Origin: a virus
Reading direction: 5' to 3' (one strand)
Virus record (IMG/VR): IMGVR_UViG_3300043313_001297
Span: 1-26,941 of that record
DNA: 26,941 bases
Positions 2,566 to 25,773 of this stretch are shown in pieces; position 1 is the stretch's first letter; every line of letters begins with the position of its first letter. The position numbers and the translations under genes are program-made. The notes beneath the pieces were generated by a model, which worked only from the letters and a program-made list of their open reading frames with translations, had not been told where the DNA came from and searched no databases.

Positions 2566-3063
2566 GTGTTTCACCGTATGATACATATCCCGATGGCCGT
2601 GTGGCGCGCCTATATGCGCCGGGTGCGTGCCGCAGAGGGCCGCAGCAAGCTGGCCTGGATCGTCGTGCCGATCGTCGGGGTGCTCCTACTCATCGGTATG
2701 CTGGCCCCAACGCCGCCGGCGGCGTCCAGTTCGGTTGCAGCTCCTGTCGCGATGCTCGAGACCGTCGACGAGGTTGGGCCCGAGGCGACCGCGCTGCCGA
2801 TCGTGGATGTTGCTCCAGCCGAGGCGCCGGCCGTCGATGAGCCGGCACCTGCTGAAACTTCCGCACCTGCAGCTGCACGCGGCGCGGTCGCACCCACTGG
2901 CGACGACTGCCCACCCGAGGCCATGATCAAGGGCAATCAGGGCAAGAGCGACTGGATCTATCATCGCCCGGGCAGCAGCTCGTACAGCCGCACCGACCCC
3001 GAGGAGTGTTTCGCTACAGCAGCCGATGCCGAAGCCGCCGGCTATCGAGCGGCCAAACGCTGA
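2566..3063 (+). CDS. Membrane-anchored protein with Pro/Ala linker and sunset-type domain
   Basis: This is a protein of 165 residues. The GTG at 2566 is chosen because GGAG ends six bases before it. Residues about 28-48 (KLAWIVVPIV then GVLLLIG) form one transmembrane helix after a basic N-terminus. A long Ala/Pro/Glu-rich linker follows. The C-terminal 50 residues have the pattern MIKGNQG, IYHRPGSSSYSRT, EECF, DAEAAGYRAAKR. This is the small domain found at the end of many secreted thermonuclease-like and actinobacterial or phage proteins (sunset domain). The domain would face outside the membrane. It shares this domain with the 181-582 protein. A function at the cell surface is possible but not shown. 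Confidence 0.8.
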   Translation: MFHRMIHIPMAVWRAYMRRVRAAEGRSKLAWIVVPIVGVLLLIGMLAPTPPAASSSVAAPVAMLETVDEVGPEATALPIVDVAPAEAPAVDEPAPAETSAPAAARGAVAPTGDDCPPEAMIKGNQGKSDWIYHRPGSSSYSRTDPEECFATAADAEAAGYRAAKR

Positions 3064-3328
3064 CGGCAGTGGAATTGCTGCACTGAACAAGCTGAGCGCT
3101 CGCCAGATCCACGCTCACGACCTCGCCATCAATGCTGATGTGCGGGGTCGTTTCGTGGTATGGTCCACTCTCGCACGGTGCGCTGTGGTATGCGGCAGAG
3201 ACCTTGCTAGCGAATGTCCTGTAGCCGTTCAACGCGGCTCGCCGTGCTATCCACGTTTCACTGGAGGGGCCAGCACGACGCCCGGCGCGGCTGTCCTGGT
3301 CGTTATCGTCGGCTTTGTCGTCGTGCAT
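3014..3328 (-). CDS. Small Cys/His protein of unknown function
   Basis: This is a predicted protein of 104 residues. Residues about 27-57 (WIARRAALNG, YRTFASKVSA, AYHSAPCESG, PYHETT) resemble small phage proteins that carry a degraded zinc knuckle ending in a WHLT-like motif, so this part at least looks coded. The C-terminal 30 residues overlap the end of the 2566-3063 gene head-on and look less protein-like. It lies 3 bases after the stop of the 3332-3514 gene, suggesting one leftward transcript that begins upstream of the CRISPR-like array. Confidence 0.45.
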   Translation of the reverse strand: MHDDKADDNDQDSRAGRRAGPSSETWIARRAALNGYRTFASKVSAAYHSAPCESGPYHETTPHISIDGEVVSVDLASAQLVQCSNSTAVSVWPLDSRRLRHRLL

Positions 3329-3331
3329 TTC

Positions 3332-3514
3332 TCATGCAGCGTCGTGCTGGTCTGTAGGATAGCCGATGCTGGCCCGATGCTCGTCACAGACCGGGACCAG
3401 CGTGTAACGTCCATCTGGACGCGCCTCAACGCGGCTGAGGCTGGTAAGGTTCTCGCATTGAGAACACGGCACCGCGGGCGTGTGGTGGATGAATTGGGGA
3501 AACAAGGCGCGCAT
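3332..3514 (-). CDS. Small zinc-ribbon-like protein downstream of the CRISPR-like array
   Basis: This is a protein of 60 residues. It has PCSQCENLTSLSRVEARPDG and PVCDEHRASIG, giving CxxC and CxxH pairs typical of a compact zinc ribbon. The ATG at 3512-3514 abuts the last array repeat: the degenerate repeat 3515-3551 supplies GGAG (minus strand 3524-3521), six bases before the start. The gene is therefore likely to be on the same transcript as the array. Function unknown. Confidence 0.55.
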   Translation of the reverse strand: MRALFPQFIHHTPAVPCSQCENLTSLSRVEARPDGRYTLVPVCDEHRASIGYPTDQHDAA

Positions 3515-3769
3515 CTTTCACTCCACTCCCACGGGTCGATACGGTTTCAACCGCAGCGCGAACACAAAGCGCAGCAGTTGCGAATTGTATGAGTACCCTA
3601 CCACGGGTCGATATGGTTGCAACACACCGGGGCGCATCCTTGACGACCTCGCGCTGCACGCTTTCAGTACCCTACCACGGGTCGATACCATTGCAACCGT
3701 GCCTCGACTGTCGAGGCCTACTGGGGTCAACTCTTTCAGTACCCTACCACGGGTCGAAACACTGGAGGG
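3515..3769 (-). CRISPR. Cas-less CRISPR-like mini-array: four degenerate 37-bp repeats, three spacers
   Basis: Repeats lie at 3515-3551, 3587-3623, 3661-3697 and 3733-3769, with spacers of 35, 37 and 35 bases. The plus-strand core is AGTACCCTACCACGGGTCGA, with ACCC/GGGT forming a short stem. Read on the minus strand each repeat begins GTTGCAAC and ends ACTGAAAG, the usual 5' GTT and 3' GAAAG ends of processed CRISPR repeats. The repeats at 3661 and 3733 share their last 25 bases (minus sense) exactly and keep the ACTGAAAG handle. The repeat at 3733 has lost its 5' end, 3587 has a damaged handle, and 3515 carries several changes. No cas gene is present anywhere. The spacers differ from one another. 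Host-derived arrays, superinfection exclusion through host Cas proteins, or a decoy RNA are all open. Confidence 0.7.
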
Positions 3770-3905
3770 CAGAACCACGCCCCGTCTGCCCCCCAGCTGG
3801 CGGGGCCTAGCCCTGCGTGCTGAGAGTGTAGCACACCCGAAAGAGGGACAAAAAGAGCCAAAGAGGGACATTCTTTCCTTTTGCAAATGGTTATTTCTAT
3901 AACTT
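3770..3905 (-). promoter_or_regulatory. Upstream (leader-like) region and promoter of the array
   Basis: The minus-strand -10 TACACT (3830-3825) is followed by the same TCTCAG as the HNH promoter; a weak -35 TTTTGT lies 17 bases upstream. Transcription would start near 3818 and enter the array about 50 bases later. The transcribed lead holds a 7-bp hairpin (GGGCAGA/TCTGCCC, 3767-3791). Two copies of AAAGAGGGACA (3840-3850 and 3860-3870) are spaced 20 bp, two helical turns, as in tandem regulator sites. The stretch beyond 3870 is AT-rich. No coding sequence is seen between 3770 and 4097. Confidence 0.5.
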
Positions 3906-5798: not shown

Positions 5799-6167
5799 AT
5801 GAACCATTCACCCGAGACAAAGGCGGCTGCCCTGGCATCTGTGCTGGCAGGCGAAACGGTGGCCGCAACCGCGCGGGCCTATGGAGTCGATCCCGGCACG
5901 ATACGCCGCTGGCGATCTCAGGCGGGCGTCGATACCGCGATCGTGCAGCAGCAAAAAAAGGTGGCGATCGGTGAGCAACTCTACGGGCTACTCGAAGATT
6001 ACGTCGAAACCTTACGAGTTCAGGTTCGAGTTACCCGAGACGAAGCCTGGATCAAAAAGCAGGACGCCGACAAACTGGCAATATTCCACGGCGTCTTATC
6101 AGACAAGTCCGTTCGACTCGCTGCTGCGCTGCGACCAACCGACGCTGCGAGGCGAGACGACGAATGA
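5799..6167 (+). CDS. terS: Terminase small subunit-like HTH protein
   Basis: This is a protein of 122 residues. The N-terminus has a clear helix-turn-helix, ETVAATARAYGVDPGTIRRW, of the kind used by small terminase subunits (and transposase N-termini) to recognise DNA. Helical segments follow (EQLYGLLEDYVETLRV, DADKLAIFHGVLSDK), fitting oligomerisation. It lies directly before the large subunit, which fixes the interpretation: it would recognise the packaging start. There is no strong ribosome site. Its stop overlaps an ATG at 6164 that opens only a 15-codon frame leading into the large-subunit start. Confidence 0.82.
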   Translation: MNHSPETKAAALASVLAGETVAATARAYGVDPGTIRRWRSQAGVDTAIVQQQKKVAIGEQLYGLLEDYVETLRVQVRVTRDEAWIKKQDADKLAIFHGVLSDKSVRLAAALRPTDAARRDDE

Positions 6168-6207
6168 CCCGCCGTCATTTCGCGGAGCCGCCGACCGTGC
6201 GCAATCG

Positions 6208-7431
6208 ATGACCGGGCACGAGTGGATTCTGGCCGGTCCTTCCGAGACAGGCAAAACGTTTGCCGCGCTCTGGCGGCTCGACACGCTGCTCAGGACCACG
6301 CCAACGTCAAACTATGCGCTGGTCCGCAAAGTTGCTGCCGATATTGGTCCAACCGTCCTCCGCACGTATCAACGCGTGATTGCCCTGAGTGGCAGCGGTG
6401 CGACACCGTATGGTGGCAATAGTCCACAGTGGTACGACTATCCCAATGGTGCCCGCTTGTGGATCGGCGGCATGGACCGGCCCGGTAAGGTGCTCTCCGG
6501 CGAGCGTGATGGCATCTATGTCAACCAGGCGGAAGAGCTGACGCTCGAAGACTGGGAGACGCTCACCACACGCGCGACCGGCCGTGGCGCCGTGACAGAC
6601 GTGCCGATGCTGTTTGGCGACTGCAACCCCGGCCCGCCGTCCCACTGGATTCTCAACCGGCCATCGCTCGAGGTGCTTTCTTCCCGCCACGAAGACAACC
6701 CGACGCTGTACGACGATGCCGCGGGGCTCACCGATCAGGGGCGGCGCTCGTTAGCGATCCTGGATGCCCTGACGGGTCTCCGCTACAAGCGTCTCCGCCT
6801 GGGGCTGTGGGTCGCGGCCGAGGGCGTTGTCTACGATGAGTTCGATCGGGGTGTGCATCTCATCGACCGCTTTCCCATTCCTGACGCCTGGCGCCGGATT
6901 CGGTGTATTGACTTCGGCTACACGAATCCATTTGTGTGCCAATGGTGGGCGATCGACGAAGACGACCGCATGTATCTCTATCGTGAGCTGTATATGACCG
7001 GGCGCACCGTGCGCGTGCATGCCGGCCAGATTGCCGAGCACAGTGTGGGGGAACGCTACCAGGCGACGATCGCGGACCATGACGCGGAAGATCGGGCAAC
7101 GCTCTCCGAGTGCGGCATCTCCACGAGGCCAGCGATCAAGGATGTGTCGCGCGGCATCCAGGCCGTGCAGGAGCGATTGAAGCTCGCAGGCGACAAGAAG
7201 CCGCGCCTGTTCATCCTGCGAAACAGCCTGATCGAACGGGACGAGACGCTCGCGGAGCGCCATAAACCGGTCGCGACCGAGCATGAGATCGAGTCCTATA
7301 TCTGGCAGAAGGGCGTCGATGGCAAGCCTGTCAACGAGGCGCCAGTCAAGCTGGACGATCACGGCATGGACACCATGCGCTACGGCGTCGCCTACATCGA
7401 TCTTGGATCATCGCTGGGGGTCTACGTATGA
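6208..7431 (+). CDS. terL: Terminase large subunit (ATPase and nuclease)
   Basis: This is a protein of 407 residues from ATG 6208. A Walker A GPSETGKT is at residues 10-17, a Walker B-like IYVNQAEEL follows, and the RNase-H-like nuclease half has CIDFGYTNPF and ADHDAEDRATL, whose acidic residues bind metal. It powers DNA translocation into the prohead and cuts the concatemer. The start is uncertain: the in-frame stretch before 6208 (PSFRGAADRAQS) also looks like family sequence but has no standard start codon. ATG 6164 opens a 15-codon frame that ends on the ATGA at 6208, so reinitiation or a frameshift may be used. ATGA coupling to the portal gene at 7428. Confidence 0.92.
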   Translation: MTGHEWILAGPSETGKTFAALWRLDTLLRTTPTSNYALVRKVAADIGPTVLRTYQRVIALSGSGATPYGGNSPQWYDYPNGARLWIGGMDRPGKVLSGERDGIYVNQAEELTLEDWETLTTRATGRGAVTDVPMLFGDCNPGPPSHWILNRPSLEVLSSRHEDNPTLYDDAAGLTDQGRRSLAILDALTGLRYKRLRLGLWVAAEGVVYDEFDRGVHLIDRFPIPDAWRRIRCIDFGYTNPFVCQWWAIDEDDRMYLYRELYMTGRTVRVHAGQIAEHSVGERYQATIADHDAEDRATLSECGISTRPAIKDVSRGIQAVQERLKLAGDKKPRLFILRNSLIERDETLAERHKPVATEHEIESYIWQKGVDGKPVNEAPVKLDDHGMDTMRYGVAYIDLGSSLGVYV

Positions 7432-10523: not shown

Positions 10524-11324
10524 ATGACCGCATCGAAAGAACTGCTGGAAGCTGCCGAGCACCTGGCAGCGGCGCGCGCGCTCAACGAAAAGACGACGAC
10601 CGAAACCAAGACGCTCGACAGCGCGATCATGGCGTCGAGCGACGGGACCTATCAACTTTGCTTTTCTGTCTTCGACGTGCTGGACAGCCACGGCGACATC
10701 GTGCAGCCTGGCGCATTCGCCAAGACGATCCGCGAGCGCGGCCCTAAGCTGCCGGTGCTTTGGAACCACGACCTGACGCAAGCGAGCATCGGCGTCGTGC
10801 GCTCGATCGCTGAAATACCGAAATCAGCATTACCCGACGACGTGCGATCGCGCTGGCCCGAAGCGAGCGGTGCGATGCTTGCACGCGTCAAGTTCTTCGA
10901 TACTCCGCGCGCCAACGAGATCGTCAAGGGGATCGACGACGGCGCGCCGTATCAGGGGAGCTTTATGTATGACGCGCTCGGCAAGGAGAGCAGGACACTC
11001 GACAACGGGCGCAAAGCGCGGATCTTGACAGACGTGCGCGTCCACGAGCTGACCGTCTGCCATTTTGGAAGCAATCCCGCGACGTACCTCGCAAAGACAG
11101 CATACGCGCTGCTCGCTGAGTATGAGGCCAAAGCAGGCCGGCGACACTCAGCGCGCGACGACGAGCTGATCGAGGCGATCGTCGAGCTCGGGATCGCGCT
11201 TGGAGCAAGGAATTATCAACGGACGACGCAAGACGCCGCCGCGCCGCTGCTCGACGCAGCACGCACGACTGAGCACAGCCCGCTGATCTCGTCTATCCGT
11301 AAGCTATTGGAGACAATACCATGA
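10524..11324 (+). CDS. Prohead protease (HK97 family)
   Basis: This is a protein of 266 residues. It has DSHGDIVQPGAFAKTI and LPVLWNHD, the His-bearing motif of HK97-type (herpes-assemblin fold) proteases. Further on, VRVHELTVCHFGSNPATYL sits where the family has the catalytic Ser before an NPA-like end. It cleaves scaffold/delta domains during head maturation. ATG 10524 is preceded by GGAG at 10512-10515. Separated from the portal by the antisense endonuclease, it has lost the tight coupling seen elsewhere, but its stop overlaps the capsid start (ATGA). In the catalytic Ser region Cys-His precede the Phe, so the exact nucleophile is unclear. Confidence 0.88.
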   Translation: MTASKELLEAAEHLAAARALNEKTTTETKTLDSAIMASSDGTYQLCFSVFDVLDSHGDIVQPGAFAKTIRERGPKLPVLWNHDLTQASIGVVRSIAEIPKSALPDDVRSRWPEASGAMLARVKFFDTPRANEIVKGIDDGAPYQGSFMYDALGKESRTLDNGRKARILTDVRVHELTVCHFGSNPATYLAKTAYALLAEYEAKAGRRHSARDDELIEAIVELGIALGARNYQRTTQDAAAPLLDAARTTEHSPLISSIRKLLETIP

Positions 11325-17852: not shown

Positions 17853-18320
17853 ATGAGCGCAACCAACCACACGGATCTTGCCTCCGATGGCATCGCCGCG
17901 ATTGCCGCGCATGTGACCGGGCCGGACGGGGAACTCGACGCCGCGATTGGCAACCGGGCATCGCTGAACACCACGAATAAGACCAGCCTGGTCGCCGCGA
18001 TCAATGAAGTGCTGGCGACCAGCGCGGAGGGGGCAGGCGTCAGGCCAGGGATCCTCATCGATTGGACCGCAGGCGAGAGCTACGAGATGACCGCGATCAC
18101 CTACCACGCCACCTACCACGCCACCATCGCCACGGCGACGGTGCGCTGGCCGGATGGGAGTGGCGGGGTGTTCACGACCACGGCGATTGATGCGACGTGG
18201 GAGGCAATCAACGCCTATACCATCACCCACGCGGCAAGCGGAAAAGTCGTGACGCAGGCGGCGGTGAGTCGAAACGCAAATGGCGACGTGACGGTGAAGC
18301 CGCCGCTTGTCGTGTCTTAA
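17853..18320 (+). CDS. Tail/baseplate accessory protein
   Basis: This is a protein of 155 residues. GAGG before ATG 17853 supports the start. It contains NTTNKTSLVAAINEVLATS, a motif often seen in tail fibre and collar proteins, and a short tandem TYHATYHAT coded by two 12-base copies (18098-18121). The C-terminal half is strand-rich. It may join the tail spike encoded next to the baseplate. Function not established. Confidence 0.6.
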   Translation: MSATNHTDLASDGIAAIAAHVTGPDGELDAAIGNRASLNTTNKTSLVAAINEVLATSAEGAGVRPGILIDWTAGESYEMTAITYHATYHATIATATVRWPDGSGGVFTTTAIDATWEAINAYTITHAASGKVVTQAAVSRNANGDVTVKPPLVVS

Positions 18321-25740: not shown

Positions 25741-25773
25741 AGCCGCCTCGACGTTTTGCCCGTCGAGGCGGCT
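25741..25773. terminator. 13-bp perfect hairpin upstream of the initiator gene
   Basis: AGCCGCCTCGACG (25741-25753) pairs with 25761-25773 around a 7-base loop (TTTTGCC). It lies 16 bases upstream of the initiator ATG on the minus strand. It may be an attenuator for the early operon or a terminator. Confidence 0.55.

Follow-up and report, generated by a model that had tools for sequence, protein, structure and literature searches.

The stretch of DNA considered here, hereafter the window (26,941 nucleotides), is the whole circular genome of a temperate phage, the first and last 27 bases of which are identical. A tyrosine-integrase frame spans the circular junction, and the genes recognized include integrase, terminase, portal, protease, capsid and tape measure. 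An earlier, sequence-only reading of this DNA had counted on a tRNA, the 3' end of which is present in an attP-like position adjoining the integrase, but only as a fragment, with no complete tRNA gene at this place. Judged by gene flavour, the host might belong to the soil or sediment Chloroflexota, which is only a guess. Coding sequence near the tail genes (18098–18125) includes 2.3 perfect tandem copies of the 12-bp unit CACCTACCACGC.

Four 37-bp repeats alternate with three unrelated spacers of 35–37 nt in the interval bounded by a promoter of the minus strand near 3830 and a small ORF on the same strand (3514–3332), and the array is read on the minus strand. In the order of reading, its parts and neighbours are:

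3825–3833, minus strand: extended -10 promoter TGCTACACT, directed into the leader and array; TGnTA...T is conserved in six phage sequences
3764–3816, minus strand: leader, a hairpin starting from GCAG that carries the loop motif CTGGGGGG and is followed by CCCTCC; shares six bases with the start of R1
3733–3769, minus strand: repeat R1, CCCTCCAGTGTTTCGACCCGTGGTAGGGTACTGAAAG; intact in its 3' half, with stem and ACTGAAAG handle, whereas the 5' half is formed by the end of the leader
3698–3732, minus strand: spacer S1, 35 nt, with the palindrome GCCTCGAC A GTCGAGGC inside
3661–3697, minus strand: repeat R2, intact; GTTGCAATGGTATCGACCCGTGGTAGGGTACTGAAAG
3624–3660, minus strand: spacer S2, 37 nt
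3587–3623, minus strand: repeat R3, stem intact, handle changed to ACTCATAC
3552–3586, minus strand: spacer S3, 35 nt
3515–3551, minus strand: terminal repeat R4 (trailer side), intact in its 5' half, having lost the ACCC/GGGT stem; handle AGTGAAAG
3332–3514, minus strand: small ORF beginning with the base that follows R4; MRALFPQFIHHTPAVPCSQCENLTSLSRVEARPDGRYTLVPVCDEHRASIGYPTDQHDAA; Cys-rich zinc-finger-like motif

The repeat starts are spaced by 72, 74 and 72 bases, and 30-base stretches of the region match one another at up to 28 positions, compared with at most 22 in 200 dinucleotide shuffles. The four repeats and three unrelated spacers of the sequence-only reading were recovered at the same coordinates, beyond chance. 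Folding also bore out the ACCC/GGGT stem and the 8-nt ACTGAAAG tail described there, as the folded repeat takes the form ACCC......GGGU, behind which exactly eight bases remain, ACUGAAAG. The account of the repeat ends held in part: R3 starts exactly with GTTGCAAC, but R2 and R4 start differently (GTTGCAAT and GTTGAAAC, respectively), and R1 has no such end. Partial decay of the window array affects the handle of R3 and the stem of R4. The bases that follow GTTGCA in the repeats are either ACCAT or ATGGT, which are exact reverse complements of each other and which both occur in the window (3587–3697) and in a related contig (L005, 10963–11071). The 8-bp palindrome reported earlier within the spacer at 3698–3732 is real, and its arms (GCCTCGAC/GTCGAGGC) recur as those of an intergenic hairpin at 25745–25769 of the window, with a different loop.

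The repeat family is present in three other IMG/VR contigs, of which L005 was found by a scan with the repeat core, and G008 and G009 by looser scans. Of the 15 new matches of one looser scan, 14 were rejected as arrays, as were L054 and L056, all being single chance matches. The L005 contig (13.1 kb) stems from a distant relative of the window phage, and its three repeats lie between a SWIM-like gene and the head genes, which is the counterpart of the position in the window. The second L005 repeat is identical to R3 of the window in 32 of 32 bases, whereas the neighbouring DNA is only about 74% identical, and the spacers of L005 have no similarity to those of the window, which are also unrelated to one another. 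The portal and capsid genes of the two phages are related (window 5881–7431, L005 4405–5598) and their terminases differ, which shows the genomes to be mosaic. G008 (54.6 kb) contains two intact repeats, a decayed one and two spacers, while G009 (30.5 kb) has 10 repeats (nine perfect, one with a single change) and nine unique spacers of 36–37 nt; the repeats of both (GTTGCAAGGGTATCGACCCGTTTGAGGGTACTGAAAG and GTTGCATTGACTTCGACCCGTTTGAGGGTACTGAAAG, respectively) clearly belong to the window's family. G008 and G009 have both an HNH gene and the sequence behind the array in common and represent another phage lineage than the window, with which they share little beyond the repeats (in a comparison that took in part of G008). 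Related repeats are therefore found in two phage lineages, with every spacer different; across the array loci, the spacers measure 33–37 nt and the units 70, 72, 73 or 74. No array is present in the relatives L009, L010, L018, L019, L022, L024 and L025. Other repeats in L009, L010, L022 and L025 were rejected as CRISPR because they are tandem or coding repeats, and the tandem palindromic 23-bp units of L009 (CTAAGGATCCTTAGACCAGGTAC, 6761–6820) probably form a repressor operator.

With near-identical direct repeats within the range of 23–47 nt, regular spacing and unique spacers of similar length (35, 37 and 35 nt), the locus has the features of a CRISPR array, and its hairpin followed by the 8-nt handle ACUGAAAG is that of Cas6-processed class 1 repeats. 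A hairpin with an 8-nt handle is the layout cleaved by the Cas6 enzymes of type I and type III systems. In the last G008 repeat (R3), the stem is ATCC/GGAT versus ACCC/GGGT elsewhere, and the change of both sides supports an RNA hairpin. Rfam CRISPR-DR19 (RF01332) was matched by three window repeats over positions 1–37 on the predicted strand, with scores of 34 (E 3.5e-4, R1), 25.8 and 25.4 bits, which are below the curated gathering threshold of 40. Two L005 repeats likewise match this family at full length on the predicted strand. CRISPR-DR19 resembles the window repeats in its 37 positions, the position of the stem-loop and the ...AGxGxACUGAAA tail, but it differs in the stem (GCUC/GAGC as opposed to ACCC/GGGT) and in the 5' end (CUUUCGA as opposed to GUUGCAA). 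Type III and I-B repeats of Thermus, such as GTTGCAA...ATTGAAAC, share the GTTGCAA start of the window family and carry a short GC stem right before an 8-nt xxTGAAAx handle, as here, in a different sequence. In the literature, no occurrence of the repeat core or of CRISPR-DR19 was found. It is highly improbable that the locus is no CRISPR at all and consists of spaced protein-binding or structured DNA sites or of part of a coding sequence, as short palindromes (for example, GTTGCAAC in one repeat) and the open frames crossing the array on both strands could suggest. A coding sequence was rejected because the unit lengths break any reading frame, and the match to CRISPR-DR19, the non-conserved spacers of standard length, the 10-unit array of G009 and the paired stem change all speak against this explanation.

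Neither Cas1 nor Cas6 was found in the four phages with arrays (window, L005, G008 and G009), at least two of which are linear records that may be fragments. A search of 127 ORFs with PADLOC and Pfam yielded no cas family among the 25 families listed per library, beyond which 60 and 21 further families were matched, and the PADLOC matches to, for example, methyltransferases and HNH proteins were rejected as defence genes because they are ordinary phage genes. Given the CRISPR-DR19 match, the occurrence of the repeat family in four contigs and the lack of a detectable cas1 or cas6, the window very likely holds a genuine viral CRISPR array without cas genes, and the proposal of the sequence-only reading to this effect is strongly supported.

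The conserved promoter and the leader just upstream make minus-strand transcription, as assumed earlier, plausible. The promoter at 3825–3833 was not flagged by a simple promoter scan and is supported by its conservation only. In the window, the leader immediately precedes R1, and in L005, where it lies at 10855–10910 (plus strand), it immediately precedes the first repeat. Its architecture is also found in the array-less relatives L009, L018/L019, L022 and L025, where it is followed by other small minus-strand ORFs, so the array fills an accessory slot served by a promoter of the phage. In folding, the CCCTCC of the leader is able to pair with a G run, a possible pseudoknot, and no Rfam family matched the window leader at the gathering threshold. 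The leader is thus a candidate structured (pseudoknot) RNA that, in this family of phages, would head an accessory operon on the minus strand. The arms of its hairpin vary in sequence yet stay complementary, together with the CTGGGGGG loop and a downstream C-run. Leader and first repeat are fused in both the window and L005, where the 5' half of this repeat is leader sequence and the stem and handle are retained, which, from the repeat layout, should be enough to make the first crRNA.

At the other end of the array, the terminal sequence of R4, GTGGAGTGAAAG, directly precedes the ATG of the small ORF and may have been reused as its ribosome-binding site. This ORF (3332–3514) is probably co-transcribed cargo. 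Two small minus-strand ORFs follow the array at 3014–3514, encoding the Cys-rich protein of 60 aa and one beginning with MHDD..., a start conserved in L010 and L025, and the pair is possibly anti-defence cargo. The placement of the R4 end, where the start of the next ORF could use it, would also fit a functionless relic, i.e., a piece that an ancestor took over from a host array through recombination and that is now decaying, as would the partial degeneration of R1, R3 and R4 and the patchy presence of the array among the relatives. This reading is nevertheless rather unlikely, since the repeat bases shared by L005 and R3 were all kept in far more diverged surroundings, the wholly different spacers of the two lineages point to repeated renewal, and the G009 repeats are near-perfect.

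Searches for a source and for targets gave no positive result. No host array was detected in 84,980 species genomes with the pattern GTTGCAACN{15,19}GGGTACTGAAAG, which required GTTGCAAC and so misses the GTTGCAAG and GTTGCATT versions of G008 and G009. Three matches in Omnitrophota and alphaproteobacterial MAGs were rejected, because they are single, have no flanking repeats and differ in the inner sequence. For the 16 spacers of the four array phages, no protospacer rose above shuffled controls among the compared loci, including those of relatives, and nothing significant was found in phages or plasmids. The centre of S1 (a 17-mer) has no match in IMG/VR, and S3 has none above shuffled spacers. 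For S2, a site in the terL gene of L009 (25 of 37) was rejected as chance, being equal to shuffled spacers, as were 43 IMG/VR contigs with a common 17-mer (at best 25 of 37).

The reading we favour, with limited confidence and by a little over its opposite, is that this is a class 1, Cas6-type phage array without cas genes that guides an effector of the host, most likely against competing phages. The phages of this repeat family probably draw on the CRISPR machinery of their host, and we infer that the array is transcribed, processed, served by host Cas proteins and directed at other phages. Transcription would proceed along the minus strand from the conserved phage promoter and through the structured leader, and the host would contribute a Cas6-like enzyme, whose cuts behind the ACCC/GGGT stems would leave the 8-nt ACUGAAAG handle. 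The window would then yield two canonical crRNAs, S1 (between R1 and R2) and S2 (between R2 and R3), while for a crRNA of S3 the handle would be altered and the 3' end left uncut. By anatomy, canonical crRNAs could likewise be formed from both L005 spacers. Once loaded into the host effector, the crRNAs would most likely be aimed at competing phages in a lysogen or in a co-infected cell. The lack of a host array (in a single scan of the 84,980 genomes) argues against targeting. The lack of protospacers, the decay of R3 and R4 and the S1 hairpin, which would hinder guide pairing, do so as well and speak for a decoy or a relic.

The main rival to inter-phage targeting is indeed an RNA anti-CRISPR decoy similar to the Racrs, in which abundant repeat RNA would sequester Cas6 and Cas7 of the host and the spacers would be passengers; we regard it as the less probable reading, but one to be taken seriously. 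The array lies right behind a conserved promoter, in a spot that holds variable small ORFs in relatives and is typical of anti-defence cargo, the window array is decaying apart from its stem-handle units, and none of the spacers has a target. Solitary repeats behind promoters are able to act in this manner, and a non-targeting crRNA can lower interference (PMC10651486). A decoy has, however, no need for regular spacers of 33–37 nt that are wholly different between related phages, nor for the nine spacers of G009, and four repeats with three spacers exceed the solitary units of the known Racrs. The combination of a conserved repeat with wholly different spacers thus favours the use of the array as guides over a decoy. 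A bolder version of the guide reading, which we offer as a speculation with little weight, is that the arrays of this repeat family represent a standing weapon common to unrelated temperate phages of one host group, trained by the adaptation machinery of the host and re-equipped with new spacers, and that in the window lineage the leader-repeat fusion couples leader folding to crRNA processing within an early accessory operon.

Virus-borne mini-CRISPR arrays have been described in the Saccharolobus portogloboviruses SPV1 and SPV2 (Medvedeva et al. 2019, PMC6858448). Like the window, these viruses carry an intergenic array of few spacers without cas genes behind a promoter-containing leader, and, as in the window and L005, the arrays of related viruses have a like position and different spacers (PMC6858448). 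In the SPVs, the leader and repeats match the arrays of the host and the spacer targets lie in the sister virus, whereas here a host array and targets were not found. Unlike in the SPVs, the window leader is a phage element that is also present without an array and is fused to R1, and one relative of the repeat family (G009) has 9 spacers. The Racrs (Camara-Wilpert et al. 2023, PMC10651486) are phage-borne CRISPR repeats that, like those of the window, stand behind a promoter and are not accompanied by cas genes, but they are solitary units of one repeat, in contrast to the several repeats with real spacers seen here. The phage and archaeal mini-arrays known so far are for the most part directed at related viruses and rely on the Cas proteins of the host (PMC6858448, PMC11656645). 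The phage mini-arrays known at the time of the SPV study lacked leaders (PMC6858448), and it is from archaeal viruses that mini-arrays with a leader are best known. Phage mini-arrays are a known kind; what is new is a repeat family shared by several phages, the turnover of its spacers and the fusion with a leader. Since one repeat family spans two lineages and at least four phage genomes, with spacers that differ between related phages and number up to nine per array, the gain of spacers and the aims of viral arrays without cas genes become testable by the comparison of metagenomes. The window array is, accordingly, ordinary in kind, and it is unusual in the spread of its repeats over two lineages and in its fusion with a phage leader.
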